From Siphonodentalium dalli (Eukaryota > Mollusca > Scaphopoda > Gadilida > Siphonodentaliidae): a stretch of DNA of 64,000 nt. Positions within the stretch are counted from its first letter, which is position 1; the number at the start of each line of letters is the position of its first letter. The translations under genes were made by a program, and so were the position numbers. A model generated the notes under the pieces. That model was given only the letters and a program-made list of their open reading frames with translations. It ran no database searches and was not told the DNA's origin. Below, one piece after another: positions 3,650 through 37,463 of the stretch. The stretch spans positions 25,050,991 to 25,114,990 of the forward strand of contig CP136061.1 of NCBI GenBank assembly GCA_032622095.1, given 5' to 3'.

Positions 3650-3876
3650 CTAAATGTTAAATTCACAAATGAACCCTCCTGCAACCGAACACACTCCATC
3701 GTCGAATGAGAGAGGACACCAATAGGGGGCGGCTATCACCAAACAGTCCTCCCCAGATGGCTGATATGCACACCAGTCAACATACGGAAGATCGTCTCCG
3801 TCTGATGTCACCCACCTCCCTTCTGTGTCGACGTCTTGGTGGCCATTAATAAAGAAGTAGACATAAGGGTTTGCAG
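3650..3876 (-). CDS. Lectin gene exon 4: C-terminal half of C-type lectin domain, with stop
   Basis: The acceptor is CTTTCGTTTCAG|CTG and the stop TAG is at 3652-3650. The exon encodes 74 residues after a split codon. Visible landmarks are GRWVTSDGDD, then YVDW, a QPSGEDC segment at the long-loop position, PYWCPLSFDDGVC, and the terminal AGGFICEF strand with the last conserved cysteine. The usual calcium/sugar tripeptide (EPN or QPD) reads QPS, and the WND site reads FDD, so classical calcium-dependent sugar binding is doubtful; this is inferred from motif loss. An additional WC and YWC pair could form another disulfide. Downstream copies of this exon carry an intact QPDNGG (see 3267-3649). 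Confidence 0.85.
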
Positions 3877-3960
3877 CTGAAACGAAAGAGAAGTGATGCG
3901 TCCGTTTGAAAGTCTGAATATGTTAATAGAGCGATTTGATAAATTCTCCATATGTGTTTG

Positions 3961-4232
3961 GGGAAGGGTTAGGGCTAGGGTTAGGGTTAGGATTAGGGTC
4001 AGGGTTAGGGCTAGGGTTAGGGCTAGGGTCAGGGTTATGGTTAGTGTTATGGTTAGGGTCAGGGCTAGGGTAAGGGCTAGAGTCAGGGTTAGGGCTAGGG
4101 TTAGGGTCAGGGCTAGACTTAGGGTTGTGGTTAGGGTCAGGGCTAAGGTTAGGGCTAGGGTTAGGGTTAGGGTCAGGGCTATGGTTATGGTTAGGGCTAT
4201 GGTTAAGGTTAGAGTTAGGGTTAGTGTATTCT
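3961..4232. repeat. Interstitial TTAGGG-like (telomere-type) tract
   Basis: About 45 hexamers of TTAGGG mixed with CTAGGG, TCAGGG, TTATGG and similar variants, all with the G-rich strand on plus. TTAGGG is the ancestral animal telomere repeat and is used by molluscs. The degeneracy shows that this is an old internal tract in the last intron of the lectin gene and not a chromosome end. A 123-codon Arg/Val frame through it is an artefact. Confidence 0.9.
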
Positions 4233-4399
4233 TACACGAAGGGCCTACCAGCGGTTTAGGTTGAAAAAACTTCTAACTCCATCCATTAAGCACCAATAGA
4301 AGAAATATAGTATTAAATATGGTGTGGCGAGAGCACGTATCCAATTTTAGTTCAACTATATTTTGTTAATAGACTCTGCATAACGCCGAGTGTGAATAG

Positions 4400-4780
4400 T
4401 TGTCCCCCAGAGAAATGAGCGGTGTCCGTCCGTCAGTCCATATATGTGTCCATTCGACAGTCAGAAACGTTTGCTGTTGGGATGCTAACTTGAAAATATT
4501 CGGTCAAGTTCGAATTTGGGTTCGGTCGGACAATTTCTGACGGAGTTATGCCCATTTTTCGACTTAGAAGTTTTTGATTATTTTGTTGTCCGGATGATAA
4601 CTCAATCCGATATCTTTCAAATTTATTATATGGATAACTTACACGGAAATACAGGTCATGTTCTATGTTAACAACATAGACAGTTGGACGAAAAGTTTGA
4701 TTGAATGGTTGTTCCCAGAATCAAATTATTCATTTCTAAAGAAGCCACCTGTCAAATAAAGCCTCCTTATTCGGGCGACG
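4400..4780 (-). repeat. Dispersed repeat, minus-oriented copy of the 58.76-59.3 kb family
   Basis: Read on the minus strand, it shares phrases such as GAGTTATCATCCGGA, AGTCGAAAAA, GGGCATAACTC and AAATTCGAACTTGACC, in the same order, with 58760-59100. The outer edge has CCGTCCGTCAGTCC at 4428-4441, like the CGGACGGAC end of the other copy. It lies between the telomere-like tract and the foldback element. Function unknown. Confidence 0.6.
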
Positions 4781-4964
4781 TGTGGCCTAGTGGCTTTTGT
4801 TAACACACTAGTAGTGGTGTACTTTGATACTGACTATAATATGATCAATTCGGCGTCTCATTCTATTATGGCTATATAGTGGAGTAGATGACGTCAAATT
4901 GTCAAGGCAATTGTTCAATTTGTGACTAAGGCATGTAACTTTGCACTTATGTACCTAATTGATA

Positions 4965-7900
4965 TTAGATTTAAAATTGGATATCCCCGTCGAAGCTGAC
5001 TATCAAAATGGCAGCCGGAAGTGGAAAATTTGATTTTTTTTTACTTGTATCTTCTAGATCAGTTTCTACTGTATGGAACAGGTTCAGAATTGTTACTTTA
5101 GTTTGCGTTATTCATATTAACTGATCATTGGAGCAATAAGATCCCAGCCTCTTCCGATGCTTCAAAAATTCGATTTTACAGAACTCGGTATGAAATTTAA
5201 CCAAATATCACCACTGCATGGGATTATAGTCATATATCAACAATAAAGTAAGTGATGAATACCATTACTTATGAATATTTCAAATCAATGGAACCAAAAT
5301 TGTCACTTGGCCTGAAAATGGCGACCAAAACCTGGTAAATGGTAAATATTGGCCCAGCTTGCCATATGCCATCGCTTACAAGTTGTTGTCGATGAATCGC
5401 ATTGGCTAATCTGTCTTATATACATTAAATTCTAACATTTCAGATGCGCAGTGGTCAAGTGTTCTATTGTAACCACTTACATTACCAGACATATTGGATT
5501 TTTGTTATCACAAACTTGACATTAAAATCAGCCAAAAAAATATTTTCAGGTTGGGACCATTTATTCAAGTAAAATGGTGTGGGATAATCCAGTACTACCC
5601 CACATTATATACCGATCTATTATATATACCCAATTCAGCATCATCTATACAGATTTAAGCATATTATATGAACCTCAAATCCATGTATGTTTCTATACCA
5701 TTATGATTATATATAGCGGGTTGGTGATCGGAATATAATGAAAATATGAGCGCCCATACGGCAAACTATTAATCCAGCCTCGCTGCATCGAGCACAGCGG
5801 TCACATGATGATCAGAAATAATTAACATAAAATATGCGGAACATGTGTTCAACACATGTTAAACTCATTATCTGAGTTAAGGCACAAAGCTGTCTTTAGC
5901 AGTAATACAATCTTCATGGGATGATATAAATATCAATATATCACCATTCTGATCCTCAATTCTCTTTCCGATTCCGATTCGAGTTACATGCGGAGAGTCC
6001 ACCCGAGAGGCGTCATTAGACGGGTTGTGATTTATCAACCGTGGACATATCTCAATATTTCCGGTCACCAAACCGCACATCTCTTCATTTGATATGACAA
6101 TTAAATGTTTTCTCTAACAAGACTGTGCCGACTTCATAATCCCACAATGTAACTATATTATGTATCAAAGATGTTTATTGTTCAGATATATCTTAAAAGC
6201 GTCAAACCGATGTGTTTTTAGACAATATTACTCAAGATGGCTTCCAAAATGGCAAAAACAATTGGTAAAAGCAAGTTGATTTCTTTTACATATATCCCCG
6301 AGCATTATTCTTTGTTCCAAAAAGGTAGCAAATTGTGACTCACTTGGTTATTAACCATGTTACTTAATCCACTGACTACTACATGTTTCATTCTGGTTGT
6401 CCCAGTACCTTCTGAGGCATGACAAATTCATTTTAAGTGCTGTGGTATGGCATTTTGCCAAAAAACGTCTTGTGGGATTCTGGCCATATTTTTGAACGGA
6501 AATGGGCAGAACTGAGTGGGACCATGTGTGGCTACTCTCACTCATTATCTTCAAAATTAACTTAATATATGGTGTATGTCAAAATAGCAGCAATGGAGTG
6601 AATAAGTGGTCATAGGTGAGGTGAATACTTATACAGGGAGTTATTGTATGGCGAAGAATACGAAGGAGTGGCTATATGGTGATGGGCGTGTGTCCATGGT
6701 GAGATGCATATGTATGCAAGGAGTGACTTGTAATCATGTGTGAGGTGAATAGCCATCCATGTATTGGATGTATGGTAATTGAAGTGGTGTATGGGTATAA
6801 TGACAGTAGCTACATGGTCATATGTGTATTGTTTGTGTATAAATATATAGAGCAATGGTCGTGTGTGGGATATATATACATCTTGGGTGACTATTGTCAT
6901 GGATTGGTGTATATGTATACATATGTTGGGTGTATGATCATGTGTGGTGTATGAATAAATATGGAGTGGTTGTACGTTTATATGTGATGTATATAGGTGT
7001 ATATGGAATGACTGTACAGCCATGATTGTTGAAGTGTATATGCATAGCTGGAGTATAACTGGGTGGTCATTTATGGTGTGCTGGTAAATATGAAGTGCCC
7101 TTGTCATGGTTGTGTATGTGGTGTATATGCATGTCTGACGAGGGACAAGCTGTATGATCAATGATGGGGTGTGAGTATACATCGAGTGGCTGAATTGTCA
7201 TGGGCAAGGTGTATATGCAAATCTGAAGTGTATGAATGGTCGTGCGGGGTATTGATATGTCAATTTGTGACGTGTATATGTATACCTAGTTTGACTCTTT
7301 GGCCATGAGTGGGTGTATATGTATATCGTGAACAAAAAGCATACAGGGAGTGACTGTATGGCCAATGTTGAGGTGCTGCGCGTGGTATGGTTATATCTAT
7401 AAGTATGTATGGTCAACGATGAGGTGTCCAGTAGGTACACATGGAGTGATCGTATGGTCAATGGTGATGTGAATTGGTAAACAAGGCGTGACTGGATGAC
7501 CGCGAATGAGGTCTATGGTATACATTGAGCGGCTGGATTGTCTTGAGTGCGGATTGTATTCAAGCATGGTGTGTAAGTGTACATGTGTGCGGGTCATTGA
7601 TCACAAATAAAAGGGTTGCATGGCCATTGGTGCGGTGTATATGTATACCCGGAGTGATTATATGGTTATGGTTGCAGTGTATTTGTATATCTTGAGTGGA
7701 TATATGACCATGGGTGTGGCAAATAGATGTACAGGAAGTGATTGTATGGCCAATGGTATACACGAATTGACAGTAAGATCCCGTGTATGTGGTGAATATC
7801 TATACAGGAAGTGACTATATGGTCACATGTGATTGGGGTGAAGGGCAGGAGTATACATACATGGTGACTCATGGCTGTATAATCGTGTGAGGTGTACGGG

Positions 7901-9345
7901 TAAACCTTAGTGTGGTTGTATGGTCAAGGGTGAGGTGCATGGTCCTTTGTGTGATGTTTATGTACATATAAAATGAGTGTATGATAATGGGTGAGTTGTA
8001 CAGGTGGCCCTTTGGTGGCTATCGCTTTCCCCAATAACTCAATTATATGTTAATCGATTGGGAGGTAATGTCAGAGAGTTCTACATATCGGTGGCCTTTT
8101 ATATACACAATGGAGAAAACGTTTTCCTGACAGTAGTCAATCAATTTTGATGCCAATGGCGAATAATTTGAAATTATTGAGCAGCTTTTCGCTAATCTCC
8201 TTGTTTGACTTTCTAAAAGGCCTTCTGGTACACCTTCCATTGCATTACTCATTTTCCCCCGCCTTTCTAGTGTGCTAGGTGTGGGGATGTCTATCCCGAT
8301 AGACGTGTTATCTGGTCTGACACCCACTTACCTATAATGGCCACACATGTTATTTGCCTGAGTAGGCACATAATTATGCCCTCTCAGTTCAGTTTCAGAT
8401 TTCTGCTCATTTCCGTTAAAAAACATCGCCAGAATCCCATAAGAGGTTTTTGCCAAAAATGTAATTGTCGTACCGCGTAAGGTACTGGGACAACCAGAAT
8501 ATAACATTTAGTTGTCCGTTGATTAATTAACATGTTTAATAACCAAGTGAATCACAATGTGCTACCTTTACAGAAGAGCGGAGAATAAAATTCGGGATAT
8601 ATTTGAAAATATCAACTTTTCTACCAAATTTTGTTGATATTTTGGATATTTTGCAAACTATCTTGAGTATTCTTTTCTAAAAACACCTCAGTGTGATGTA
8701 TTTAAGACGGATCAAAACAACAAACACCAAAGATAGTTCCATTTCACTTGAAAAAATGATCCAGACCTGAAAAGTTACTTTTTGTCGATGTTGAGATAAA
8801 ATTCGAATAATTTTGGTAATGTAGTAGTAACACTTATCCAAGATGCATCGTATTCAATGTAGATATATACGATATATATAGACTATCCAATTGGGTTCAC
8901 CAACCAGAACGTTTAAGCGATTGCAATGCACGCTGTGACAATATTTACCATGTTCCATATTTTGGCCGCCATTTTGACAGCCCTTTTTAGCCAAAGTGAC
9001 AATTTTGGTTCCATTGAGTTGAAATATTCATGAGTAATGGTAAGCCTCACTTACTTGCATAGTTTTGTTCATTTCATGTTGAAATATGACTAGAAACCCA
9101 ATGGTGATTTTTTGCGAAATTTCATACCGCGTTCTGTAAGATCAAATTATTGAGGGATTGGAAGGGGCTGGTATAGAAAGGCACATTTCATTGCTCCAGT
9201 GATCATTTAACATGAACAATACAAAATAATTTCACATTTCCGAACCAGTTCCGTAAAGCAGAAACTGATCAAGAAGATATTAGTAAAAAAAACGTTAAAT
9301 TTTCCAGTTACGCTGCCATTTTGACGGCCATCTTGGACGGGGAGT
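4965..9345. mobile_element. Foldback element with long imperfect terminal arms and a GTATAC-rich minisatellite core
   Basis: The left arm (about 4965-6560) and right arm (about 8345-9345) are diverged inverted copies. For example, AAAATGGCAGC...GATCAGTTTCT...CTGGAGCAAT on the left matches the right arm read in reverse, and CTGGTTGTCCCAGTACC matches GGTACTGGGACAACCAG. The left arm has an extra insertion of about 585 bp (5578-6163) absent from the right. The core (about 6600-8030) is an irregular minisatellite. A segment of about 290 bp (8040-8330) next to the core is unmatched. There is no transposase, so it is non-autonomous. A second copy is at 46.3-48.5 kb and a partial one at 51.34-51.86 kb. 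Confidence 0.72.
6600..8030. repeat. Irregular 60-80-bp minisatellite, core of the foldback element
   Basis: Repeating phrases are GTGTATATGTATAC, GGAGTGACTGTATGGTCA and GGTGAGGTGTATA. Units vary from about 50 to 80 bp and are strongly diverged. The same repeat in reverse orientation (CACTCCTTGTATACCTATTC, GGCCATATAGCCACTC) forms the core of the copy at 46.3-47.8 kb. Open frames through it, such as 6610-7182 minus, are His/Thr/Ile-rich artefacts. Confidence 0.8.
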
Positions 9346-9673
9346 TCCAATTTCGCCCTAAATATGTGCCATTTTATCTCGCAGAGTCATACTTATTGTA
9401 TATTGCCTATTTTTAAATGGCATATTCCATGGTAAGATTAATTGCGACATTCAATAAATTATAAAATCACGAAACGCTCTTTAAATTCGGAATCCCCACA
9501 AAAGAAGGGTTAAAGTTAAATTTCAGCGTGACTCCACATCTAATATCAATTAGTATGTGATTATGTACATATGTGAAATTTCGTTCTTTAGTCACAAAGT
9601 GAAAAATTTTGTTACTAATCAGAAAAAACGTCGTGTAGTGTGGCACGGATTTCGTTTGGAAATGGAGCATATA

Positions 9674-12600
9674 CAGTACACTCATCGTGTGCTGTAAGGA
9701 AAACACTCAACACGGTGGGGATATTTTTGGGAGAGTGATTCACGGTGGCCCACTCAACACCGTGGGCCTTAGTGGAGAGGATTAGCGATGCGCTTTTGTC
9801 TAATCAACAAGGTGATGGCAGTGTATTCCCACCTCACTACAAAACACCGCGAATCACCGTGAAACACGGTGGATTGCCGACAATCACTGCGAAACCATTA
9901 TATTCGCAACCTTCAAAGCATTGCATTTTCCACCATTTACTTTTTATTTGTTTTCATTTAAAAAAAATTGAAAAGGACAACATAGTAATGTAAAATTTAA
10001 ATTAGCTGTAGGGAACGCTTTATTATACTGTGGTCCGTTTGTGTGGTTCGCGCACATTTTTATCTTTTAAACTTTTTGACATGTTGACTTGAGAGGAAAA
10101 AAAACTATAATGTTTTCAGTTTCAACTTCTTGCTCAATTTAAAGGCACTTGTTGGTTTGAATGTCCAAATTATGATCGATTTTGATACATCGCGGATCAT
10201 GGATCAGCATATGCCGATAAGTACGCTAAAAATGATATACACGAACGGCCTCTTTCTTGTTTGGGTCCCGAACGTTCTTCGGCATACAGATAATTCCCAG
10301 TATTCTAGTCATTACATAGTACAAATAAAGAGCGTTTATTTCACTTATCACCGAAAACTGAGGACAGCTCGTAAATATCTCTGACATTATCAAATATATG
10401 TTTTGTTCAGAGCAGGTGCAACTAAATATATCGCGTATTTATCAATATATCATTGTAATAATAGTATCATTTTCAAACTTTAGTAAAACTAACACCGTTA
10501 TATCACCCACCAGGTTGGTACCATTCCAATTTTGGTTTAATGATCTTTATTGCATCCAATTTTCCCGGGATACATGTGCATGTACATAGATTTTCGGTAT
10601 CAATTAAAGTAATTCGTGTGCGTAAATATGCAACTATATACTTGTTGTATAAGCTTTGTTTTAACTTTTTATCTGTATGTATGCACATTTATATATCGCA
10701 TGCCTGTGTCTAATGTGGAAGTTGTGTGGTTTCGGATTACTCGTTCACCATCATTACGTCATTATGTATACACAAAGAGAGCACACGAGAAAACTACAGG
10801 ATGCTCGGGTATTCCGCTAACTGAATTTGACCGTTGTTATGTAATATTGCGCATTGCGGATCGCAACTGTGTTTTTTTAATTCCTATCTGATTTTCATGA
10901 TATAATAAAAGCTATATATCTGAAGGATTTAAATTCCGAATCGCGACGGACTGATTTCGTGGTATCCAAATGATATGTTGCAGGGTAAATCCGATGTTAA
11001 ATTTGTTAACATGTTTTTAACCAATAACGATATATATACCTCAACTAACCATATTGTAGACACGATAGTATGGCAAATGCAATTGTTGAGTCATGATAAA
11101 GGGCATTTTATTATTTAAATATTGGATATGTAATCATCGCGTTCGAGTCAGCAGAGGCTTATACACGCATAAATTTGTTTTAAAATATGAATTAACTATA
11201 TTTTACTCTGGATAGATCTCAGTATTCCCCAACATCAAACGTACGTTGCCCATTAATTTGTGTCTTCGCAATAAAGCATTCAATCATTTCATATGAACTG
11301 CCACATAACGGTACGTAGTCGGAATTAGGAAAGATAATACGGTAACTTAATATATATCACAATCCCGGAGGTTTAATTTATTCGGGATAAATAAATATAG
11401 CATATACACATACAGTATTTTTAAATGTGTTTTCATTCGTACTGAAGAGAAAGTTTATTTTTACCATTTATATGAATAGACTAACAGTGAACGCTCTTTA
11501 TTGTTCCAACGTGACTAATAGCAATGGTACTTATATGTGTATGGTAAATATAAAGAGCATGTGTCATACGAACTAGAGGAAACACCTGAGTCTGATTGCA
11601 TGCGACAGTACTGGCGTACATTTTATGTGTGGCCGCTAACACCGGAACAATAGCCATGCGGTGTGTGTACTGTGCGCCTTACTTCATTCTGAATGGCAAA
11701 GTAACACTACATGTAAATGTAGCTCATATGGTTATGATTGAAACTCGCACCCTATGCGCGGCGCTGCAACGGGGACAATTAATTTTGACACCTCTTACAG
11801 ACTTGGCTGAACTGTCAAAGTTATGTAAGAGCTAACTGACTCCCATTATACTACCATTGTCTGAAATAACACGGACACAGTCGCACGCTATATATAAACA
11901 TAACTATGTATATGTGAATCCTAGTGGTCACCGACATTTTGTTTTATTATTTTAGCTAGTATATACACATGTATTTACACTATACACCCGTTTCATCCAC
12001 TACATGTTATTATACACCCATAGCATGATAATCATTCAAATTCAAAAGTGGGTTGTAGGGGAGTAGTTCCGCCCCTTCCAAATCATCCAGGGTTAAATCC
12101 AAAACCCCAATAAATAAAAAAAACATTTACGCTAGCTGAATCAGTCTTCCCTCGGAACGTTTATGCATGCATTGATGTAGGGGCCGGAACAAATGAGAGA
12201 GCTAGGGAATGTTATCCATATTTGCGTTTCGCGCACATTTCGATCTTTTAAACATTTTGCTAAACAAGATAGCATCATTAAAAATAAATTAAAACAAATT
12301 TAATTGTTTAATGGACTTGGATCATTATATTATACATATATATATATATATATGTGTGTGCATGTGTGTAAATAATACGAAATTTGCGCTTAAAATGTGA
12401 AATTAGTGATCATGGGGCGGAAGAAATCAATCAATACAATAACAAATTGTTTATTTATTTTACCTATACATGTACATGTAGATAGTTAATCATTCTGGAA
12501 TTTTTGAAAATATCAACCATAATATAAATATAATGTACAACAACATACAATGCATGGCCCACTGATTGTATGCTTTAGAATAAACTACAGTAAAGGGTTT

Positions 12601-12856
12601 CGGCTATGCATGACGTGATACAATATAGCTGTTGGCGTTTTGAGGCGATTCTCTGTGATTCGCGGTGATTCCCAGTGATTACCAGTGATCACCGACAAGT
12701 CACCCGGACGTTTGTTTATTCAACTTAATCCGATCCACTCGAGTTCACCGTGGATCACCGTGGAAAAATCACCGTGAATGCCGGTGATTCACGGTGGGCT
12801 TAGTGTGGTTCCCACCGTGTTGAGTGTTTTCCTTATACCACACTATGAGTGTACTG
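9674..12856. mobile_element. TA-flanked TIR transposon, 3183 bp, non-autonomous (Tc1/mariner-like ends)
   Basis: The ends are inverted repeats of about 48 bp: CAGTACACTCATCGTGTG, then TAAGGAAAACACTCAACAC on the left, and on the right CACCGTGTTGAGTGTTTTCC then TATGAGTGTACTG. The target dinucleotide TA sits directly outside both ends (9672-9673 and 12857-12858). Subterminal zones repeat short CACCGTGAATCACCGTG motifs on both sides. TA duplication plus ends beginning CAGT point to the Tc1/mariner superfamily (inference). No open frame in the element resembles a DDE transposase. Shorter relatives are at 44564-44789 and from 60032. Confidence 0.8.
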
Positions 12857-13017
12857 TACGTCTGTTGTTCAACGCAGTGTGAGAAATCTTTTTGAAAACT
12901 GTACAAGAAAATCACAAATCCTAGCATCTAGACTGGCCTCAACTGAAGCTTGGGTCAGCTGCCCACTCTGCCCCCTCTTCCGGCACCCCTGCTGGGGTGA
13001 TCACATACTTAATTGTA

Positions 13018-13945
13018 CATGCGCTAATGGCGCATATTTTGTCGCTTTCGGCGCACCGCGCTAATGGCGCACCGCGCCGAATGCACTAATGGCGCACAGC
13101 GCCGATTGCACTAATGGCGCATATTTTGTCGCTTTCGGCGCGGTGCGACGAAAGCGCCAAAAGCGCCGAAAGCGACAAAAAGTGCGCCGTAATGGCGCAT
13201 GTTTTGTCGCTTTCGGCGCGCGCCGAAACAACGCTAATGGCGCACATTTTGTCGCTTTCGACAAAAAGTGCGCCGAAAGCGCCATTAGCAAGTGGCCGTA
13301 ATAGGATTCCATATCTTAGTATTGGAATCCTATTAGGGCCACTTGCTAATGGCGCTTTCGGCGCTTTCGGCGCGATGCGCCGAAAGCGCCGAAAGCGACA
13401 AAAAGTGCGCCATTAGTAACGCGCCGAAAGCGCCGAAAGCGCCGAAAGCGACAAAATATGCGCCGCTACGGCGCACTATTTGTAGCTTTCGGCGCACTTT
13501 TTGTCGTTTTCGGCGCTTTCGGCGCGCGCGCCGAAAGCGACAAAATGTGAGATATTAGCGCATGTTTCGGCGCGCCGAAAGCGACAAAATGTGCGCCGTT
13601 ACGGCGCACATTTTGTCGCTTTCAACGCGTTACTAATGGCGCACTTTTTGTCGCTTTCGGCGCGCGCCGAAAGCGCCATTAGGCATACTATTAGGTCCAC
13701 TCCCTAATGGCGCGCGCCGGAAGCGACAAACAGTGCGCCATTAGGGTATGTTTCGGCGCGCGCCGAAAGCGACAAAAAGTGCGCCGATCGGCGCACATTT
13801 TGTCGCTTTCGGCGCTTTCGGCGCTTTCGGCGCTTTCGGCGCGTTCGGCGCTTTCGGCGCTTTCGGCGCATCGCGCCGAATGCGACAAAAAGTGCGCCGA
13901 AAGCGCCATTAGCAAGTGGCCCTAATAGGATTCCATAGTATAGTA
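13018..13945. repeat. GC-rich self-complementary satellite with a 41-bp hairpin
   Basis: The array is built from GCTAATGGCGCACATTTTG, TCGCTTTCGGCGC and their reverse complements in alternating orientation, with runs of a 9-bp GCTTTCGGC unit at 13803-13870. At 13271-13363 there is a near-perfect inverted repeat, 40 of 41 positions paired, around an 11-bp spacer. Its outer part is satellite and its inner part is GCAAGTGGCCSTAATAGG. The same inner sequence ends the array near 13905-13940. GC content is far above the surroundings. Ala/Ser/Arg-rich open frames on both strands are artefacts of the repeat. Confidence 0.88.
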
Positions 13946-14084
13946 CACATCTCAATCGGATTATGCACAGCGTCAATAATAAAATGGTTGAGTTCAGTAA
14001 AATACTCCTCTCTCGACAAAAACCAACAGTCTTGACTTTTGAATAATTTCAGTTTGATATTGGGAGTTTATATTGTACTAGAAG

Positions 14085-14790
14085 GTGACCCAACTTCGTC
14101 CGGGTTACCTTGAATTGTCTATTTTGAAGGCCAAGGTCAAGTGGGGTCACGATTTGACCCGTCCAAAACACAGTGCCCGAACAAAAGTACCCGACAAAAG
14201 TACCCGTCGAAATCCATCCGGTTTTACCCGATTTGACCTTGAATTGACCATTTTGAAGGTCAGGTGGGGTCAAACACCAACACCCCAAAAATGGTGGAAA
14301 TCGGTCCAGCGGAGCAGGGAAATCGGCCCAGCGGATACCGAGATACCTTATGCATCAAATTTCGTCCGTAAAAATCCGCCAGTTTAACCCGATTTGATTT
14401 CCACTCAAGCATATAGACGCGCCTCATACACACACGCTCATTAATTATCAAGTTTCAACGTAAAGATAAATTACCATCGGTGCCCGAGATATCGCCAAGA
14501 CGTCTGAAACAGTCGAATGCATCGGCCAGTTAAGCGTAAGAAGGTGACCCGACTTCGTCCGGGCTTTGACCTTGAATTGACCATTTTGAAGGTTAAGGTC
14601 AGGTGGGGTCAAACACCAACACCCCAAAAATGGTGGAAATCGGCCCAGCGGATACCGGGAAATCGGCCCAGCGGATACCGAGATACCCTATGCATCAAAT
14701 TTCGTCCGTAAAAATCCACCAGTTTAACCCGATTTGATTTCCACTCAAGTATATAAACGCGCCTCATATACACACGCTCATTAATTATCA
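14085..14790. repeat. Dispersed GACCCGACTTCGTCCGGG repeat, two units (also 17281-17986)
   Basis: Two units starting near 14083 and 14541 share CCTTGAATTGACCATTTTG, AAGGTCAGGTGGGGTCA, GGTGGAAATCGGYCCAGCGG and CATCAAATTTCGTCCG. The 53.09-54.11 kb region carries diverged relatives. The related tail at 15160-15260 has the phrase AAGTTTGGTCGAAATCGG, then CCAGCCGTGTTCGAG and a CA tract, a 3'-end form seen in many invertebrate retroposons. No coding part is attached. Confidence 0.65.
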
Positions 14791-15689
14791 AGTTTCAACG
14801 TAATAATAAGCGTTAACGTGATCTAACGTTATGACATCTAACGACGTCATAGAAGTTACGCTTTGTTTTTATCCTGATGGAAGATAGTACCACTTCCTCT
14901 TGATAATTGAGGCAGATAACTAAAACGGATACATACGCATTATATATCGTTGGAAAGAGGAAACACGAAAGATTCTCACAAGATTATTATGACTGGCATT
15001 TTATTATTCGCGCTGTTTCGAATCGATTTGTAAGCACCGAACTCAAATGAAAGTCCCGTAACACAGCGTAAAAAGAGATTTAACCTCGGCACGTGAAAAG
15101 TTGACCTCGGATCTGAAAATCAATAGGCCCATGTTCGTTCCCGGGTCGAATTACGTGTCCGTACCAAGTTTGGTCGAAATCGGTCCAGCCGTGTTCGAGT
15201 CCATCGCGAACACACACACACACAAACACACAGATCTTCCAAAATATATAATAGATAATAATTTGTACAAAAGGCACGGCTTTTTAGGTTTTAGGTTTAG
15301 GTTTTAAGGCTGACGTGGTGTCCGCATGGTGAGCTCGTAGTCTCTTTGCATTGTGAATCTCTGATTTCTCACATGCCCTGATGTATGATTGACCTAATTT
15401 TTACACGAAATTGCTAGCTTTTGGACCCACTCTTTGGATGAACCCTAGTGCGAGTCTGGGGTGAAATTAATCATAATCATACCACGATATAAGGTCTAAG
15501 TGAATCTTATTTGATGGGTATACGCAACTGTGAAGTTATTTTAATAAGATTAAAAAAGGCACAGACATATCATAGCTTATGCAAGTGGTTTAGCTGTGGT
15601 TCGTTAATTACGCAAGCGTATGGTCATATTAATTATATATACATGTTGTTGATAGCGCTACATGTATATAATTGTTCCTCGTCAGCAAG

Positions 15690-16700
15690 TTTTAAAAGAT
15701 GGTCTATCTCTTTGTAACATGTGTTATATAGTTACCGGGGTATAAAGATGGCCTATCTCTTTGTAAACATGTGTTATATAGTTACCCGGGTATAAAGATG
15801 GTCTATCTCCTTGTAGACATGTGTTATATAGTTACCTGGGAATAAAGATGGCCTATCTCTTTGTAAACATGTGTTATATAGTTACCGGAGTATAACGATG
15901 GCATATCTCTTTGTAAACATGTGTTATATAGTTACCGGGGTATAAAGATGGCCTATCTCTTTGTAAACATGTGTTATATAGTTACCGGGGTATACGGATG
16001 GCCTATCTCTTTGTAAACATGTTATATAGTTACCGGGGTATAAATATGGCCTATCTCTTTGTAAACATGTGTTATATAGTTACCGGGGTATAAAGATGGC
16101 ATATCTCTTTGTAAACATGTGTTATATAGTTACCGGGGTATAAAGATGGCCTATCTCTTTGTAAACATGTGTTATATAGTTATCAGGGTATAAAGATGGT
16201 ATATATCTTTGCAAACATGTGTTATATAGTTACCGGGGTATAAAGATGGTCTATCTCTTTGTAAACATGTGTTATGTAGTTACCGGGGTATAAAGCTGGC
16301 CTATCTCTTTGTAAACATGTGTTATATAGTTATCAGGGTATAAAGATGGCCTATCTCTTTGTAAACATGTGTTATATAGTTACCAGGGTATAAAGATGGT
16401 CTATCTCTTTGTAAACGTGTGTTATATAGTTACCGGGGTATAAAGATGGTCTATCTCTGTGTAAACATGTGTTATATAGTTACCAGGGTATAAAGATGGT
16501 CTATCTCTTTGTAAACATGTGTTATATAGTTACCGGGATATAAATCTTGCCTATTTCTTTGTAAACATGTGTTATATAGTTACCAGGGTATAAAGATGAC
16601 CTACCTCTTTGTAAACATGTGTTATATAGTTACCGGGGTATTAAGATGGCCTATCTCTTTGTAAACATGTGTTATATAGTTACCGGCCATACCGGGGTAT
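15690..16700. repeat. 50-bp minisatellite, about 20 copies (also 18886-19890)
   Basis: The unit is GTAAACATGTGTTATATAG then TTACCGGGGTATAAAGATGG and CCTATCTCTTT. Most units are exactly 50 bp with few substitutions; one is 48 bp through loss of GT. The array ends with a partial duplication at TACCGGCCATACCGGGG. It appears once in each copy of the 3196-bp duplication. Confidence 0.95.
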
Positions 16701-16797
16701 AAAATATTAGATATGAATCGATTAATATTCATTTTTATTTTTATTTAGGAGAAAGAGGAAAGACAAAAATTCACACACACAATTCATTCTCTCATTC

Positions 16798-19700
16798 CGG
16801 CGCACATTTTGTCGCTTTCGGCGCGTCACTAATGGCGCACTTTTTGTCGCTTTCGGCGCGCGCCGAAAGCGCCATTAGGCATACTATTAGGTCCATTCCC
16901 TAATGGCGCGCGCCGGAAGCGACAAAAAGTGCGCCATTAGGGTATGTTTCGGCGCGCGCCGAAAGCGACAAAAAGTGCGCCGATTGGCGCACATTTAGTC
17001 GCTTTCGGCGCTTTCGGCGCTTTCGGCGCTTTCGGCGCTTTCGGCGCTTTCGGCGCTTTCGGCGCATCGCGCCGAATGCGACAAAAAGTGCGCCGAAAGC
17101 GCCATTAGCAAGTGGCCCTAATAGGATTCCATAGTATAGTACACATCTCAATCGGATTATGCACAGCGTCAATAATATAATGGTTGAGTTCAGTAAAATA
17201 CTCCTCTCTCGACAAAACCCAACAGTCTTGACTTTTGAATAATTTCAGTTTGATATTGGGAGTTTATATTGTACTAGAAGGTGACCCAACTTCGTCCGGG
17301 TTACCTTGAATTGTCTATTTTGAAGGCCAAGGTCAAGTGGGGTCACGATTTGACCCGTCCAAAACACAGTGCCCGAACAAAAGTACCCGACAAAAGTACC
17401 CGTCGAAATCCATCCGGTTTTACCCGATTTGACCTTGAATTGACCATTTTGAAGGTCAGGTGGGGTCAAACACCAACACCCCAAAAATGGTGGAAATCGG
17501 TCCAGCGGAGCAGGGAAATCGGCCCAGCGGATACCGAGATACCCTATGCATCAAATTTCGTCCGTAAAAATCCGTCAGTTTAACCCGATTTGATTTCCAC
17601 TCAAGCATATAGACGCGCCTCATACACACACGCTCATTAATTATCAAGTTTCAACGTAAAGATAAATTACCATCGGTGCCCGAGATATCGCCAAGACGTC
17701 TGAAACAGTCAAATGCATCGGCCAGTTAAGCGTAAGAAGGTGACCCGACTTCGTCCGGGCTTTGACCTTGAATTGACCATTTTGAAGGTCAAGGTCAGGT
17801 GGGGTCAAACACCAACACCCCAAAAATGGTGGAAATCGGCCCAGCGGATACCGGGAAATCGGCCCAGCGGATACCGAGATACCCTATGCATCAAATTTCG
17901 TCCGTAAAAATCCACCAGTTTAACCCGATTTGATTTCCACTCAAGTATATAAACGCGCCTCATATACACACGCTCATTAATTATCAAGTTTCAACGTAAT
18001 AATAAGCGTTAACGTGATCTAACGTTATGACATCTAACGACGTCATACAAGTTACGCTTTGTTTTTATCCTGATGGAAGATAGTACCACTTCCTCTTGAT
18101 AATTGAGGCAGATAACTAAAACGGATACATACGCATTATATATCGTTGGAAAGAGGAAACACGAAAGATTCTCACAAGATTATTATGACTGGCATTTTAT
18201 TATTCGCGCTGTTTCGAATCGATTTGTAAGCACCGAACTCAAATGAAAGTCCCGTAACACAGCGTAAAAAGAGATTTAACCTCGGCACGTGAAAAGTTGA
18301 CCTCGGATCTGAAAATCAATAGGCCCATGTTCGTTCCCGGGTCGAATTACGTGTCCGTACCAAGTTTGGTCGAAATCGGTCCAGCCGTGTTCGAGTCCAT
18401 CGCGAACACACACACGCACAAACACACAGATCTTCCAAAATATATAATAGATAATAATTTGTACAAAAGGCACGGCTTTTTAGGTTTTAGGTTTAGGTTT
18501 TAAGGCTGACGTGGTGTCCGCGTGGTGAGCTCGTAGTCTCTTTGCATTGTGAATCTCTGATTTCTCACATGCCCTGATGTATGATTGACCTAATTTTTAC
18601 ACGAAATTGCTAGCTTTTGGACCCACTCTTTGGATGAACCCTAGTGCGAGTCTGGGGTGAAATTAATCATAATCATACCACGATATAAGGCCTAAGTGAA
18701 TCTTATTTGATGGGTATACGCAACTGTGAAGTTATTTTAATAAGATTAAAAAAGGCACAGACATATCATAGCTTATGCATGTGGTTTAGCTGTGGTTCGT
18801 TAATTACGCAAGCGTATGGTCATATTAATTATATATACATGTTGTTGATAGCGCTACATGTATATAATTGTTCCTCGTCAGCAAGTTTTAAAAGATGGTC
18901 TATCTCTTTGTAACATGTGTTATATAGTTACCGGGGTATAAAGATGGCCTATCTCTTTGTAAACATGTGTTATATAGTTACCCGGGTATAAAGATGGTCT
19001 ATCTCCTTGTAAACATGTGTTATATAGTTACCTGGGTATAAAGATGGCCTATCTCTTTGTAAACATGTGTTATATAGTTACCGGAGTATAACGATGGCAT
19101 ATCTCTTTGTAAACATGTGTTATATAGTTACCGGGGTATAAAGATGGCCTATCTCTTTGTAAACATGTGTTATATAGTTACCGGGGTATAAGGATGGCCT
19201 ATCTCTTTGTAAACATGTTATATAGTTACCGGGGTATAAATATGGCCTATCTCTTTGTAAACATGTGTTATATAGTTACCGGGGTATAAAGATGGCATAT
19301 CTCTTTGTAAACATGTGTTATATAGTTACCGGGGTATAAAGATGGCCTATATCTTTGTAAACATGTGTTATATAGTTATCAGGGTATAAAGATGGTATAT
19401 ATCTTTGCAAACATGTGTTATATAGTTACCGGGGTATAAAGATGGTCTATCTCTTTGTAAACATGTATTATGTAGTTACCGGGGTATAAAGCTGGCCTAT
19501 CTCTTTGTAAACATGTGTTATATAGTTATCAGGGTATAAAGATGGCCTATCTCTTTGTAAACATGTGTTATATAGTTACCAGGGTATAAAGATGGTCTAT
19601 CTCTTTGTAAACGTGTGTTATATAGTTACCGGGGTATAAAGATGGTCTATCTCTGTGTAAACATGTGTTATATAGTTACCAGGGTATAAAGATGGTCTAT

Positions 19701-19993
19701 CTCTTTGTAAACATGTGTTATATAGTTACCGGGATATAAATCTTGCCTATTTCTTTGTAAACATGTGTTATATAGTTACCAGGGTATAAAGATGACCTAC
19801 CTCTTTGTAAACATGTGTTATATAGTTACCGGGGTATTAAGATGGCCTATCTCTTTGTAAACATGTGTTATATAGTTACCGGCCATACCGGGGTATAACA
19901 TATTAGATATGAATCGATTAATATTCATTTTTATTTTTATTTAGGAGAAAGAGGAAAGACAAAAATTCACACACACAATTCATTCTCTCATTC
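16798..19993. repeat. 3196-bp tandem duplication, second copy
   Basis: Same content and order as 13602-16797; differences are few (for example TTAGTC for TTTGTC near 16995 and ACAAGTTACG for AGAAGTTACG near 18048). The copy number of the internal 50-bp minisatellite appears the same in both, which argues for a very young duplication or an assembly duplicate. It ends at CATTCCAAGGCAG (about 19993), beyond which sequence is unique. The third lectin exon follows within 510 bp. Confidence 0.93.
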
Positions 19994-20499
19994 CAAGGCA
20001 GACTCTTCCATGCCCGGACTACTTTCTTACATGTGACATATAATTCTAAAATATTTAAAGGCACACTGCGTGTTCGGATATTCCTTATATTTCGAATATT
20101 TTCTGGTCTAAAAACGTGTGGTTTTTAGCTAAAGAACAATAGTGGTTACTGTTTACAGCAACCAGAATTTTTATTGTGTAATTTTGTCACAAATAAACGT
20201 TAATTAGACTCATTATCGATTATAACTAATACTAACTATGTAATAAAACAATAAAAGCAATACATTCAGGAACACCATAATTATCTCTATCGTTATTTGG
20301 TATCGCCTGAATGTTCTGTTCTAAAAATAGAACAATAAACGGTCCCACTTAATCATCTCATTTTATAATAAACTTTTTGGAAGAAAATCAATAATAATTG
20401 ATAGATTTCGTTTCCGGACATGGGTCTTCAATTAATTTTTATTATGAACCCCAAGCCATGCTCTATTTATTAAATCTGAACTACTCCTTATACACGTAC

Positions 20500-20676
20500 C
20501 TGAGAAATCTCCTAATATGGTCTTCAGTAATTCGTGGGTTTGAGCTGAATCTACTATAGCCAATTTGCCACCCTCTTGTGCACACGCATTCGCAGCTTGA
20601 CTGAAGTCCAGAGGCCCCGCCTCGAATGTTATACACTTTCCGTTGAGTTCATACTGATTGCTTAAACACTGTTTAG
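20500..20676 (-). CDS. Lectin gene exon 3: N-terminal half of C-type lectin domain
   Basis: This 177-bp exon has acceptor TTCTGTTATTCCAG|CTA and donor CAG|GTACGT, phase 1 at both ends. The peptide begins KQCLSNQYELNGKC, continues through ITFEAGPLDFSQA, then NACAQEGGKLAIVDS and HELLKTILGD. This is the first half of a long-form C-type lectin domain: an extra N-terminal cysteine pair, the F-x-x-A-x-x-x-C helix, and the G-G-x-L-A turn. Its continuation is the exon at 3650-3876, 16.6 kb downstream; no better partner in the right phase lies between. It sits next to a palindromic repeat (20738-21225) and just after the 3196-bp tandem duplication. Confidence 0.85.
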
Positions 20677-20737
20677 CTGGAATAACAGAAACGATTCAAT
20701 GGTTGTGATAACTCTAAGGGTACGTTCATACACTGTC

Positions 20738-21226
20738 AAATTTTCACGGTATGGCTTGCATGCATTTCGTCGTAGAAAACGATATGATGCCAGAACATGA
20801 ACGGAAACATGCATGAATGTTAGATCATGCAGGATCAATAGCAAGCCATTCTACATAACGGTACGTTCATACGCTGGCAAGTTTGCACGTCATAGATAAC
20901 CTCATGGTGTCAGCATATGAACGGAAACATGCATATAAAATGAATCTGCTCCACAGCTAACTAAATGAGAAGAAAAATCTCTGTAGTTCCACCTGTAGCG
21001 GTGCTACCGGAATTTTCCTGTGAATAACATGCAATTATCTGGCAAGAATAAACCATTCAGGTATTTGAAGGCAAATGCTAGTTCAAGTAGATCTACAACA
21101 ATTTTACTTCTCAGGTCGTTCGCTTTGGTAAACTTAGGTAAAGCTGCATGTTATATGAAGTTTCCGTTTATATTATGACACCATGTGGTTTTCTATGACG
21201 AAATGCATGCAAAACATACCGTGTTT
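20738..21226. repeat. Foldback repeat of about 490 bp beside lectin exon 3
   Basis: CACGGTATGGCTTGCATGCATTTCG...ATGAACGGAAACATGCAT at about 20747-20815 recurs inverted at 21147-21225 (ATGAAGTTTCCG...CGAAATGCATGCAAAACATACCGTG). A direct partial copy begins near 20870 (GGTACGTTCATACGCTGG). It is probably a small foldback or MITE insertion in intron 2, ending about 60 bp from the exon acceptor. No clear target duplication was found. Confidence 0.6.
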
Positions 21227-22378: not shown

Positions 22379-22474
22379 TTAAACAAACGGAAGAAGTGCA
22401 TCGAAGAGGACCACGTACAATAATATACAATTTTCAACCCAAACTGCCAGACATTGTTTAGTCCCATCGCTACG

Positions 22475-22515: not shown

Positions 22516-22609
22516 CATTGCCATCACAATATATACAATTATACATACTTAAATCTAACTTGTTTTATTTAAAAGTTTTATCAGTTAAAATTAGCCAGGA
22601 ATCATAACC

Positions 22610-24800: not shown

Positions 24801-24832
24801 AATATCACACACACACACACACATATATATAT

Positions 24833-28940: not shown

Positions 28941-28944
28941 TCCA

Positions 28945-30505: not shown

Positions 30506-30509
30506 GCCC

Positions 30510-32590: not shown

Positions 32591-32592
32591 AC

Positions 32593-32689
32593 CTGCTGTC
32601 TCTGTCTCGCAGTGGTCGCCGCTGAACCCCAGTGGACAGGAACAGTATGTGCCATTCTGCAGTACACCCCCGTTTAAGCAGGAGAACAT
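32593..32689 (-). CDS. Lectin gene exon 2: EGF-like module
   Basis: This 97-bp exon has acceptor TTAATTGCAG|ATG and donor CAG|GTTAGT. It encodes 32 residues plus one base (phase 0 in, phase 1 out). The peptide shows an EGF C-terminal signature: CLNGG near the start, then CSCPLGFSGDHCE, that is C-x-C-P-x-G-F-x-G-x-x-C-E. Only four cysteines fall in the exon (C4, C16, C18, C27), so this is a short or incomplete EGF fold unless cysteines from exon 1 contribute. A single EGF module between an N-terminal PAN region and a C-type lectin domain is a known animal domain arrangement. The exon stands alone in about 16 kb of repetitive intron sequence. Confidence 0.82.
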
Positions 32690-32859
32690 CTGCAATTAAT
32701 GAAACTAACATAATGCAAACAAGATGGCCACTAATACAAAATATGTTAGGATGAAGTATGTAGCGACCCTGAGATCACCACAAAACACGAATAAGATACA
32801 GAAAATACACACGAGGGCTTGCACGGCATACACTTGGTAAGTATATATGCATGCACTAC

Positions 32860-33290
32860 ACACGAATGACATTTATACATGTACACTTAGTACATATTGA
32901 AGTTATACAACGTGTGACATACATTCGTGTGCACTTTGTACCTAATCAATGTCTACACACGAGTGACATACATACATGCAAACTTATTACATAATCGAGC
33001 TCTATAACGTGTGTCATGCATATATGTACACTTAGTACATTGTCAATGTATATACACTTGTGACAGGCATAAATATGCACGTTGTACATAATCAAGGTCT
33101 ACAATGTGTGGTGTGGCAAACATACATGTACGACTTAATACATGTAATATCGTCAATGTATACAAACGTGCGATATGCATGCTTTCAATGTCTACACACG
33201 CGTGACACGCGTGGTTGTACAATACTACACGTACTAGAACAAACTCGGGGTCTACACGCGAGCGATATGCATACATGTACAAGCCCTGCA
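32860..33290. repeat. Diverged minisatellite, about 65 bp
   Basis: The recurring phrases are TGTACACTTAGTACAT, AATCAATGTCTACACACG and AGTGACATACATACATG. Six or seven units are visible. The phrase TGTACACTTAGTACC reappears at 37032, on the far side of the 33.3-37.0 kb block, so that block appears to have been inserted within or next to this array. Confidence 0.7.
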
Positions 33291-33302
33291 AACCTTACAT
33301 TT

Positions 33303-33380
33303 TAGGTCGAACCGAACTTTGAAACCGAATCATCGTCTCGGTTTCGAATCGAACCGAACCTCGAACCTCGAATCCAAACA
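33303..33380. repeat. GAACCGAA-rich palindromic block, partner at 36945-37025
   Basis: GTCGAACCGAACTTTGAAAC and GAACCGAATCATC...GGTTTCGAA-CGAACCGA occur here and again at 36975-37020 in the same orientation. They frame the 33749-36288 element and may be the ends of an older element into which it inserted. Confidence 0.5.
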
Positions 33381-33748
33381 CCGACATTGTTGTCGTAGAC
33401 TCAGGATAGAGTGGACAGTCAGAAATGTCAGTAGACATTATTATAGTAAAATCAACGGTTATTTAATTATTGCCCATCTATACTATAAGATAACTACACA
33501 ACAAAGAATTATTTTATATTGGAGATTGGTAGTCTGTTTATTCGTCCGCGACTTTGGTTTCAAATCTACGTATTTTGTATTCTGATATTTTCTGTTTTTG
33601 CAAGCGAATACGATTGTTTATCGGTAAAGTAGCATACATGTACGTAGGGTCCCAAATCAGCACTGTACAGGGGGAATTTTATCTTGTAAATAAATTAAGT
33701 ACCCGTACGGCATATTATTATTGTAATGTCGACACTCGGTAACTAATA

Positions 33749-36288
33749 GCGAGTTTGCGATACCCGTTGGACGGGAACGGGTACGGGTAGATCGGTTAAC
33801 ATCGTCACGCTAACTTGGGTACTTTCGATGTAGCGCATAAAGCGATAACGATTTGGAACGGGTAGATGTGTCACATTGACCGGTAACCTTTCACTACGAT
33901 TTTCTCACCCAAAGGTTCATTAATTCAATGGAATTCCAGTTAGCTATACGTTAATCTATTTATTAAAGATTCCATGGGCAAATATCATAGATAAAGTTGT
34001 CATTTAAACCCAAGTTTTATGTTCAAATTATCGAGGCAGCTTCTAGCACTTAGATAAATACGGAACGCCGATATTTTCACTAACAACTGTGTTCAGTGCA
34101 TTAATGACAGGTTGTGTTAATTGAGTGAGTTGATGGTGCTATAGACGCAGTCTCGACCCAATTGCTGGGACGTGGCTATATATGGTATCCGCATTAGGAA
34201 GGGTGCCCACCTAACTACACCCCTTGAAGTTGAACCATATCAAATTACATGTTTGCGCGTAATTCCATTTGCACATCCCCTGGGCTTTGGTTCCCCCCCC
34301 CCCAACTGGTTCCTCACAACTGCTTGGATAGTAGCATATCCTAAATGAATCAGTAGTCTTTTTTTCACTAGCCGGGTGGGCATATATATAATCCACTGGG
34401 CTGTCATGGAGTACAAAAAATGTGTGAACCTGAAAAATCCTAATATCTTAATATCTAGTGGTCTAACGCCATGCAAATTCACTCCCAATTTTTGTTTCTT
34501 AAATTAATTACCAGTTTCTGACTGACCGCTGACCACTGACCACCCGATCGACTATGGTTCGGCATGGTGTGAGAAATGTTTTAAATTGGAATTTGCTAAA
34601 TCCTAGCATCCAGACTGGCATCAAACTGTCCAAGTGTTGGATTTGTTGAGAGCTGCTGACACCACCCCCCATAAAGGTTGGAAAAATTCCAAAAGTTTCT
34701 GATAGTCATTTCAGTCCAAACTGTTTACCAAAATAAAGGAAATTATACAAATGTTGGTCTAAAAACAACAAATTATCCATTAATAAATTGTTGAAAAATC
34801 AAAGTACGAGAACAAATTCAACCCTTGAAATTTACAAAAAAATTTGTGTCAGGTATATGAAATTTCCAATCTTCAACATTTGACCAAAGTTGGGGTGAGA
34901 CATCCCTGTCGTCACGTCCCTGTCTCTACACATTGTACAAGGGTATCAATATATAGTGGATTTATCCATGTATATATTGCAAATTTGAATACAACCGTTT
35001 AGTTACTTTATCATATGTATGTGGGGACTGGTTTCTCATTTTAATATATATTTACCATCTGAAAGGACATGGCGCATTTGAACCACAGTGCTGGCGTATA
35101 TCGTTTTGGGGATAATACAGGTCGCTAAAGACACGAAATACCTATACAAACGCTACGAAATCTAAGCATAATCAGAGCGAGTTTCAGCTGTTTTCTGTTT
35201 TTCGCATAGAAGTGAAGCAAACGCTCTTTATTCAATCCATATAATAAACAGACTACATTTTAACATATTTTATTGTTACACAAAATAAAGATTACAAACC
35301 AATGTTACTTAAAGGTACTCAACCCGATCAGACGGTTCCCATATCATCAAGTTACAACAACAACAACATTTCTTCAAAATACGCTTGAATCCATTAATTA
35401 AAAAAAAACCGCGTTATTTATCAACATGTTGTTCAACGAAATATGGCCGTATTGTCACGAAATTTGTCCGTGTTACCACTTGAGTTTAGAGTTATCCATC
35501 TTCGTCAATTTTTTCCAAGGCCGTCGGTTTGATGACCCTTTTCTGCCACAAATAATTACACATTTCAAGAAATAACAAACTTCAAAAATCACATATCTGA
35601 TCACTCTGAGCTTTGATGGGTGGGTTCATCGACTCGAATCTAATATTTTTACCCCCACCCGCAAAGCTAAAAAAAATGTAACTTGGGAGTGTTAATTCGG
35701 ATTATGCATCTTTAATATGACTTAATATTCCCCAACTAAAATGAGGGACAAATTCGGTCTCATGTCTGACTAAAGGTACGAGTCGTATATTGTTAGACCC
35801 TGGGTCTAAAACAATACATTTTACACCGAATAGTGGTTGGAAAAATTAACTATATAACGTAATTGTATATTTGTGCTATCATAATCTATTTTCTAAGTCT
35901 AAAAATTTCGACCGAATTATAGTCAACTCTCGACCGGTCTATGACTTGTAGAATCCAATTGTTTTAAATGTTACCAAGATAAGTGAAAGACAAGCACCAC
36001 TACCTTCCTTGATGGAATCAACTGATTATCCTGGTACCCATCTAATCTAAATACAAACTTCCAGCAATCCATAACACTAAGTATATACAACCTCGGCCAA
36101 TAAAGGCAATAGCAATATATCTATATCATAATATTTAGCTTTTCTGTTGCGTTTGGCTCACCATACATTACCAGTCGATGTGATGAATTCTACCCGTAAA
36201 ACAGTTTGCGATTACAAAACGTGTACCGGTACGGGTAGCTACCCGTACGCGTACCCGTACCGGTACCGGTTTGAAATCGCAAACTCGC
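33749..36288. mobile_element. TIR element, 2540 bp, flanked by TAATA
   Basis: The ends are inverted: GCGAGTTTGCGATAC at 33749 and ATCGCAAACTCGC ending at 36288, with TAATA immediately outside both (33744-33748, 36289-36293). Subterminal zones carry clustered ACGGGTACGGGTA motifs; on the right these form a strong palindrome, ACGGGTAGCTACCCGT, with flanking repeats (about 36225-36270). The interior has no transposase-like frame. The true target duplication could be TA or the full TAATA; the superfamily is unassigned. Confidence 0.7.
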
Positions 36289-37159
36289 TAATAACAGACT
36301 CGTCAATCTGTAACTGCGACAACACAATCATGACAAAGATCAAAGCGTGCTGACGTCGTGTTGTAGCAATTAAGTGTCACAACACAAAGCACATCAGGTT
36401 ACCGTAATCATGTCAATCATTTATGCTGATAAACAATGGCCACACCTTCTCCTCACTGTGATTGGTTGACTCCAATTGTTGACACAGAAGGCTGCCCGGA
36501 AATACCTATTTACTTTCCGCCAGTTTATTGAATTCAAAAAAGTTTGTTCGATCTGTATTCATCAATAATCATAACTTTATTATCTCTTTTGTTAGGTATA
36601 ACTATGTCTATTAGTAAAGTTATAAGGAGAATAAAACAAACTTTGACGAGGTAGAACTTTGACTGAGATATAAATGTTACAGTTTTGCTAATTAATTATC
36701 ACGAATTTGACATGTCCGACCGGACCGTTTAGCGGGAGCGGAATAAAGTTATGCCAAAAGACCCGTTCAATGAAATATCACCCAGTTACCCCGCCCGAGT
36801 AATGATCAAATTAATTATGTCTAATGTAAACATAAAATCATAGTATCACACAGTTGTATGTAAACCAATTAATATGCGGTATATAATCAACAAACAATTC
36901 CCAGTACACAAAATTTGCCATTTTGCGGGACTAAAGAAAAGGTTCGATATAAACGAATCCCGTCTAAGGTTTCGAACCGGACCGAATCATCACGGCGGTT
37001 TCGAAACGAACCGACCCTCGACATGGGACTAATGTACACTTAGTACCTTCGGCGTTTATGTAAGTAACAAACGATTTTGCTCAACATATTACAGAAACCA
37101 ATAATACATGTATAGTAGCCTACATGCGAACCATCGGCGTGCTATAACACTGTCCTCAC

Positions 37160-37463
37160 CTTCTGCATGAAGTCACTGTCTGGGTCTGGATCTGTTTGGT
37201 GATCCGGATTTTCATACCAGTGTGATGATAGCCGACAATCGCCAGTCGCTCTACTGAACGATGCAGACATACATACATCCAGTGCCGAGCATCGCCGGCC
37301 ACATTTCAGGGAGCTGTGAGATTGGACAGATTGAAGGTACCCGTCATCTGATGAGCTGATTGCTCTTTTTTGAGTTTCACGGAAAACAGTTGATTTTCCA
37401 TTCACCGCCCCCGCCATATACGTTAGAGCCACGAAGACTTCCACAAATAGAGTCATTTTCAAC
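37160..37463 (-). CDS. Lectin gene exon 1: signal peptide and PAN/Apple-like module
   Basis: The start codon is at 37456-37454, seven bases after an acceptor (TTTATTGCAG|GTTGAAA), so a 5' untranslated exon should lie further upstream. The exon encodes 99 residues. Residues 1-20 are a hydrophobic signal peptide (MTLFVEVFVALTYMAGAVNG). Residues about 40-80 carry the pattern SLKCGRRCSALDVC followed by SFSRATGDCRLSS. This matches the PAN/Apple C-x3-C-x5-C spacing, with a fourth Cys in the C-R/E-L-S strand, although the module is short. An Asp/Pro-rich linker (DPDPDSD) follows. The exon ends AAG|GTGAGG in phase 0, which agrees with the EGF exon. The same open frame extends upstream through the acceptor to another Met at 37501; I reject that start because the signal peptide begins at the Met after the splice site. 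Confidence 0.82.

Follow-up and report, generated by a model that had tools for sequence, protein, structure and literature searches.

A predicted PAN-EGF-C-type lectin gene spread over 34 kb of repeat-rich DNA in Siphonodentalium dalli

Selectins combine lectin and EGF modules in one protein, with the lectin domain placed before the EGF domain. Here we describe a putative gene of the scaphopod Siphonodentalium dalli in which this order is reversed, with EGF before lectin, and in which a PAN module is present in addition. The gene lies on the minus strand of C1:25050991-25114990, a stretch of 64,000 nt (hereafter the window) in a genome of 2.23 Gb on nine contigs (C1-C9). Very probably it is a real protein-coding gene, belonging to a large family here, and it would encode a secreted C-type lectin with a PAN-EGF head whose coding pieces are spread over 34 kb.

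As in the secreted C-type lectins of invertebrates (PF00059), the lectin domain of this gene is complete, here spread over two exons; unlike them, the gene adds PAN and EGF in front and carries an altered motif (QPS/FDD). Other genes of the same genome, for example at C9:61.35 Mb and C5:185.62 Mb, likewise have a leader and a Cys-rich PAN-like segment (both judged by eye) and a lectin domain, but consist of one open frame with no introns in the part shown. Rotifer proteins with EGF and C-type lectin domains are described as secreted and as having one EGF-like domain directly before the lectin domain, as here; the word PAN is absent from the main text of that paper (PMC8878817). The paper states that a single EGF with a C-type lectin carbohydrate recognition domain (CRD) had been undescribed in Lophotrochozoa before the rotifer study (PMC8878817). 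The gastropod CREPs are also modular recognition proteins with a C-type lectin domain; in Aplysia, proteins with such a domain are reported to number 146, and possible CREPs two (PMC9334734). CREPs combine immunoglobulin-type and C-type lectin domains, whereas the window gene has a PAN-EGF head, and no immunoglobulin domain was matched in a Pfam scan of its joined product. P-selectin-like genes are reported to have expanded in venerid clams (PMC9484242), a gene expansion that recalls the family of the window gene. Among the papers listed by our literature searches, no title pointed to a family that combines PAN, EGF and C-type lectin.

Gene model and predicted protein

The gene model consists of four coding exons on the minus strand. 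Exon 1 (37160..37456, 297 nt) holds the ATG, a hydrophobic leader and a PAN/Apple-like module, and ends in phase 0 at a GT. Exon 2 (32593..32689, 97 nt, phases 0 and 1) encodes an EGF-like module with four Cys. Exon 3 (20500..20676, 177 nt) and exon 4 (3650..3876, 227 nt including the stop codon) encode the N and C halves of the lectin domain, respectively. All three introns run from GT to AG, in phases 0, 1 and 1, and joining the exons gives an open reading frame (ORF) of 265 codons before the stop. The coordinates, borders, phases and 265-residue product of the first-pass annotation were thus all reproduced. Its estimate that exons make up about 2% of the span was close to the measured value of 798 of 33,814 bases (2.4%), and in this 2.2-Gb genome the gene is a checked case of one that would largely escape gene finding by ORF length. 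Exon 2 was also recovered independently. It was one of nine open AG..GT segments found when the 16.4 kb from the PAN to the lectin exons were scanned for phase-compatible segments of 61-157 nt with at least four Cys, and the only one with a near-consensus donor (8 of 9 positions; the next best of the nine segments had 5).

At the 5' end, 37463 is the first base behind an AG acceptor. The seven untranslated bases between this acceptor and the ATG (37457..37463, minus strand) mark the end of a probable intron in the 5' untranslated region. In each of the 19 PAN paralogues for which flanking sequence was fetched, an AG precedes the ATG by 7 or 8 bases, which makes a further-upstream untranslated exon likely. 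The model probably lacks its true 5' end, and the word "complete" in the first-pass annotation is probably too strong.

The joined exons, proposed earlier to form one C-type lectin domain, matched the Pfam profile Lectin_C (PF00059) over positions 4-107 of 107 with 40.8 bits, above the cut-off of 22.6 (3.9e-10). PAN_1 (PF00024) exceeded its cut-off of 21.4 both in the joined product (22.7 bits, 9e-5) and in exon 1 alone (26.3 bits). The EGF assignment fared less evenly. Exon 2 alone lay just over the cut-off for EGF (PF00008; 21.6 against 21.5 bits), but the score fell below it in the joined protein (16.1), and the module has only four Cys where six are usual. A sequence search of the PDB returned C-type lectin domains first, the best match being a type II antifreeze protein (4e-8), with C-type mannose receptor 2 (1.2e-6) also among them. 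A single-sequence fold of exon 1 alone gave a predicted local distance difference test (pLDDT) score of 49.8, too poor to judge the PAN fold.

Canonical C-type lectin motifs are EPN or QPD, and WND, and many family members are without them. The translation of exon 4 carries QPS and FDD at these sites and so departs from the canonical sugar/Ca2+ motif. The altered motif bears on the type of ligand and not on membership of the C-type lectin fold. Given QPS/FDD instead of QPD/EPN and WND, a non-canonical ligand is likely for the predicted lectin domain, and a Ca2+-dependent mannose or galactose site is not to be assumed.

The product would run in the order leader, PAN, EGF spacer, lectin domain and stop, as a secreted and soluble protein. 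Secretion is predicted from a signal-peptide-like leader at the start of exon 1, judged by eye; no membrane segment was seen by eye after this leader in the joined protein. From what is known of such domains, the ligand of the lectin domain may be carried by microbes, food particles or matrix, and the PAN-EGF part may serve partner binding or multimerisation. The introns would be ordinary spliceosomal introns; intron 3 has been enlarged by satellites, dispersed repeats and a tandem duplication of recent date. The gene itself shows no feature that falls outside the kinds already known.

The PAN-EGF-lectin family in the genome

Searching the genome with the PAN exon listed 150 matches, of which 42 were dropped (35 belonging to a single tandem array on C2, plus seven more) and 108 counted, the window's own included; identities ranged from 100% (the window itself) to about 25-30%. 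Seventy-eight of the 129 EGF matches listed were used in the PAN-EGF linkage counts. The counts in this section refer to the matches listed. An EGF exon was found within 15 kb downstream on the same strand for 62 of the 108 PAN exons, and upstream or on the opposite strand for none (0/108). Within 40 kb, 80 of the 108 had an EGF exon downstream on the same strand, compared to 8 upstream on the same strand, 0 downstream on the opposite strand and 1 upstream on the opposite strand. Behind the 80 cases stand 65 distinct EGF exons.

The lectin half was followed through a paralogue at C8:180.61 Mb, the sole other locus read through all four exons. Here PAN, EGF, lectin N half and lectin C half lie on one strand in a span of about 7.2 kb. 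The borders (GT-AG) and phases (0, 1 and 1) are as in the window gene, and the PAN exon is 73% identical to that of the window. The profile score of the C half was strong (3e-16) and that of the N half weak (0.0016); the putative N half is identified through its place, splice sites and phase. With four exons, phases 0/1/1, the same domain order and a single strand, the window gene qualifies on sequence grounds as a member of a PAN-EGF-lectin family. At C8:143.24 Mb the order is likewise PAN, EGF, lectin N half, the last of these with a weak score (0.0015). Using exon 4 of the C8:180.61 Mb paralogue as the query (150 matches listed, all used), a lectin second-half exon of this type was found within 60 kb downstream on the same strand for 24 of the 108 PAN exons. 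On the opposite strand the numbers were 1 of 108 downstream and 0 of 108 upstream. Not every locus inspected had a lectin half. The two closest PAN-EGF pairs, on C3, had no lectin exon in the 10 kb behind each, with 40 kb between those stretches unread, and three further loci, fetched 8 kb behind or from the EGF exon, gave one weak lectin N half and two without any.

Because a paralogue has the same anatomy and both the PAN-EGF and the PAN-lectin linkage counts favour one order and strand, the predicted architecture is a family trait and no construct of the first reading. A single PAN-EGF-C-type lectin gene inside repeat-filled introns, as first proposed, is the best reading of the window in view of the domain matches and the paralogue with the same four-exon anatomy. 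More widely, the gene points to a large family in which the PAN-EGF head is constrained and the lectin tails differ greatly, as might be the case in a recognition repertoire of an invertebrate.

Two other arrangements of PAN-related sequence were seen. At C2:100380273-100386917, 35 PAN exon fragments lie in tandem, mostly codons 49-98 and many with stop codons, and 11 of the 34 start-to-start distances are 136-138 bp. This stretch seems to be a satellite built from a PAN exon. In six of eight loci with the handles L001-L008, a single open frame combines a leader and a Cys-rich PAN-like segment (both judged by eye) with a C-type lectin domain; two of the eight, L004 and L006, are shorter, and the eight loci coexist in the genome with multi-exon relatives.

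Head, tail and competing explanations

Only two close relatives of the lectin half were found elsewhere among the matches listed: one at C1:24.79 Mb (exon 3 at C1:24.788 Mb, 90%; exon 4 at C1:24.786 Mb, 81%) and one at C4:27.47 Mb (exon 3 at C4:27.466 Mb, 79%; exon 4 at C4:27.470 Mb, 79%). The next-best relatives listed reached at most 49% for exon 3 and 47% for exon 4. Tandem fragments of the window's own exon 4 were also among the lectin-half matches. Below, a lectin half like that of the window gene is called a window-type tail (exon 3/4), and a lectin copy with no listed PAN exon nearby is called headless.

Several findings weigh against one continuous gene of this family. The GT donor of the PAN exon, kept in 17 of the 19 paralogues, is lost in the other 2. 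For 10 of the 108 PAN exons, a lectin exon of the C8 type also lies upstream within 60 kb on the same strand, a pattern expected of tandem arrays, and 17 of the 150 listed lectin exons account for all 24 downstream PAN-lectin cases. No listed PAN match lies near the C1:24.79 Mb or C4:27.47 Mb copies. The 41 kb upstream of the C1 copy were read and held no PAN; for the C4 copy, 1.5 kb upstream was read directly and the remainder rests on genome match lists. Since the closest lectin copies are without a nearby PAN, the lectin half could in principle be a separate gene, and a crude scan gave one candidate leader exon before each of the two copies. Two weak EGF-like matches (E 0.045, 45% identity) lie 38-40 kb before the C1 copy on the same strand; their Cys pattern is unlike that of exon 2, and we left them as part of a putative other gene.

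The two headless copies and their candidate leader exons favour an explanation by two chance neighbours: a PAN-EGF gene or gene remnant at 37.5-32.6 kb and, as a unit of its own at 20.7-3.6 kb, a headless lectin copy like those at C1:24.79 Mb and C4:27.47 Mb. It is also favoured by the wider tail counts: among the PAN exons listed, one lies within 60 kb of 0 of 23 window-type exon-4 relatives and of 0 of the 29 best exon-3 relatives, the 23 being those that rank above the PAN-linked lectin of C8:180.61 Mb, which is left out by construction. Lower-ranking exon-4 matches include others near PAN exons, for example at C1:36.17 Mb. Against two neighbours, order, strand and phase all match the PAN-EGF-lectin plan of C8:180.61 Mb, the four frames are open and the splice sites intact, and in the window the same crude scan, run over the 12 kb that precede exon 3, gave no leader-like candidate with a phase-1 donor. 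We consider this explanation unlikely.

Under the preferred reading of a single gene, the relation of head and tail is the part worth pursuing. In a domain tree of exon 4 (18 rows, the duplicate row L045 having been removed beforehand), the window and C8:180.61 Mb tails fall on different sides of a weak branch (71/88, with no starred branches). When the two tails were held together, the approximately unbiased (AU) test gave p 0.116 and the constraint was not rejected. The three nearest PAN relatives, on C3, have synonymous divergences (dS) of 0.28-0.36 in the PAN exon, and the match lists show no tail of the window type in that region of C3. Some 0.5 kb before exon 3, within intron 2, the lectin segment in common with the C1 copy breaks off; the stretch at this point is present again at C1:24.817 Mb and is a possible recombination substrate. 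As its closest tail relatives are not PAN-linked, the gene may be a head-tail chimera. Tentatively, a combinatorial repertoire can be imagined in which a conserved PAN-EGF head, present at dozens of loci, is joined by recombination in repeat-rich phase-1 introns to lectin tails from different clades, with the window gene as a recent chimera; we hold this to be possible but doubtful. A chimeric RNA from two C-type lectin genes is reported for a prawn (PMC12541431), which suggests that the joining of heads and tails is a question for RNA as well.

Head and tail also differ in their substitution patterns. Exon 1 compared with 19 PAN paralogues, some of them near-identical to each other, gave dS of 0.28-0.71 and ratios of nonsynonymous to synonymous divergence (dN/dS) of 0.21-0.36; on these values the predicted PAN exon is under purifying selection. 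The lectin exons compared with the C1:24.79 Mb and C4:27.47 Mb copies gave dS of 0.05-0.18 and dN/dS of 0.6-1.4, with 2-8 synonymous changes per comparison. This can be relaxed constraint, diversifying selection or noise, and insofar as it is relaxation it adds to the findings that weigh against the gene reading. All three lectin copies keep open frames, and exon 4 differs in length among them by whole codons.

A decaying pseudogene would have the same anatomy and is compatible with the gene model, the exons being open but silent and the introns swollen by unconstrained insertions. The lectin-half dN/dS near 1, the large insertions and the tandemly repeated 3' end are in its favour. They are opposed by 265 codons without stop or frameshift between intact splice sites, by the whole-codon differences among the three copies of exon 4 and by the low dN/dS of the PAN exon, and we judge this alternative to be quite improbable. 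Short exons over 34 kb invite chance models, but an assembly of chance ORFs between AG and GT is ruled out by the Pfam matches, the many PAN and EGF paralogues in fixed order and the paralogue with the same anatomy.

Intron growth and other features of the window

The first-pass annotation suggested that the introns tolerate expansion. For intron 3 this is borne out by two recent paralogous copies with shorter introns: its length is 16.6 kb in the window, about 2.06 kb in the C1 copy and about 4.3 kb in the C4 copy. Such short-intron copies make intron growth measurable. C1:24784308-24788750 aligns to window 1857-21132 around insertions, with main pieces at 85-88%, and C4:27465381-27470592 aligns to the window in pieces at 75-94%. 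At 5315..16642, about 11.3 kb of the window lies opposite about 15 bases of the C1:24.787 Mb copy. A direct tandem duplication of 3,200 bp (13599..19994; copies 13599-16798 and 16795-19994, 99.2% identical) contains a 50-bp satellite as well as a portion of a dispersed repeat. Within this duplication, window 14807-15257 is a young repeat, a member of a dispersed family; 40 of 3,359 candidates were scored: besides the two copies in the window, 35 stand at 95-98% identity and three, which are longer, at 87-89%. A degenerate telomere-like (CCCTAA)n array (3965..4224, minus strand) lies about 90 bases upstream of exon 4. It sits in an insertion at window about 3934-4249 with CGCT at both edges, which is common to the C1 copy and has a clean empty site in the C4:27.470 Mb copy. 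The alignments with the short-intron copies, the duplication and the young repeat suggest that intron 3 grew mostly by insertion, though for some pieces loss in the copies may apply. Most of the load carried by intron 3 is recent, and such a load is nothing unusual in a large genome.

The 3' end of exon 4 begins a 171-bp tandem repeat of 2.7 units (3294..3750, minus strand), in which unit 1 is the functional end. Further units follow behind the stop, the last one frameshifted, and window 3479-3580 and 3650 onwards both map to one stretch of the C1 copy. The units past the stop read GQPDNGG and the translated unit reads QPSGE. The former is nearer to the GQPDNG of the C4 copy, so the post-stop units may preserve an older version of exon 4.

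Beyond the gene, ten other open frames of the window gave as best Pfam match DUF7200, with 16 bits against a cut-off of 27. A search of the genome for hemocyanin (PF14830), taken as a molluscan marker, gave no match, and none was obtained in the control genomes. A frame at window 62385-62696 on the minus strand has a CCHC zinc-knuckle-like motif (judged by eye) with no Pfam match at 0.1, and is perhaps a retroelement remnant. The frames at window 6610-7512 and 46230-47745 read as similar His/Thr/Tyr-rich words and apparently belong to one simple-sequence-like repeat family.

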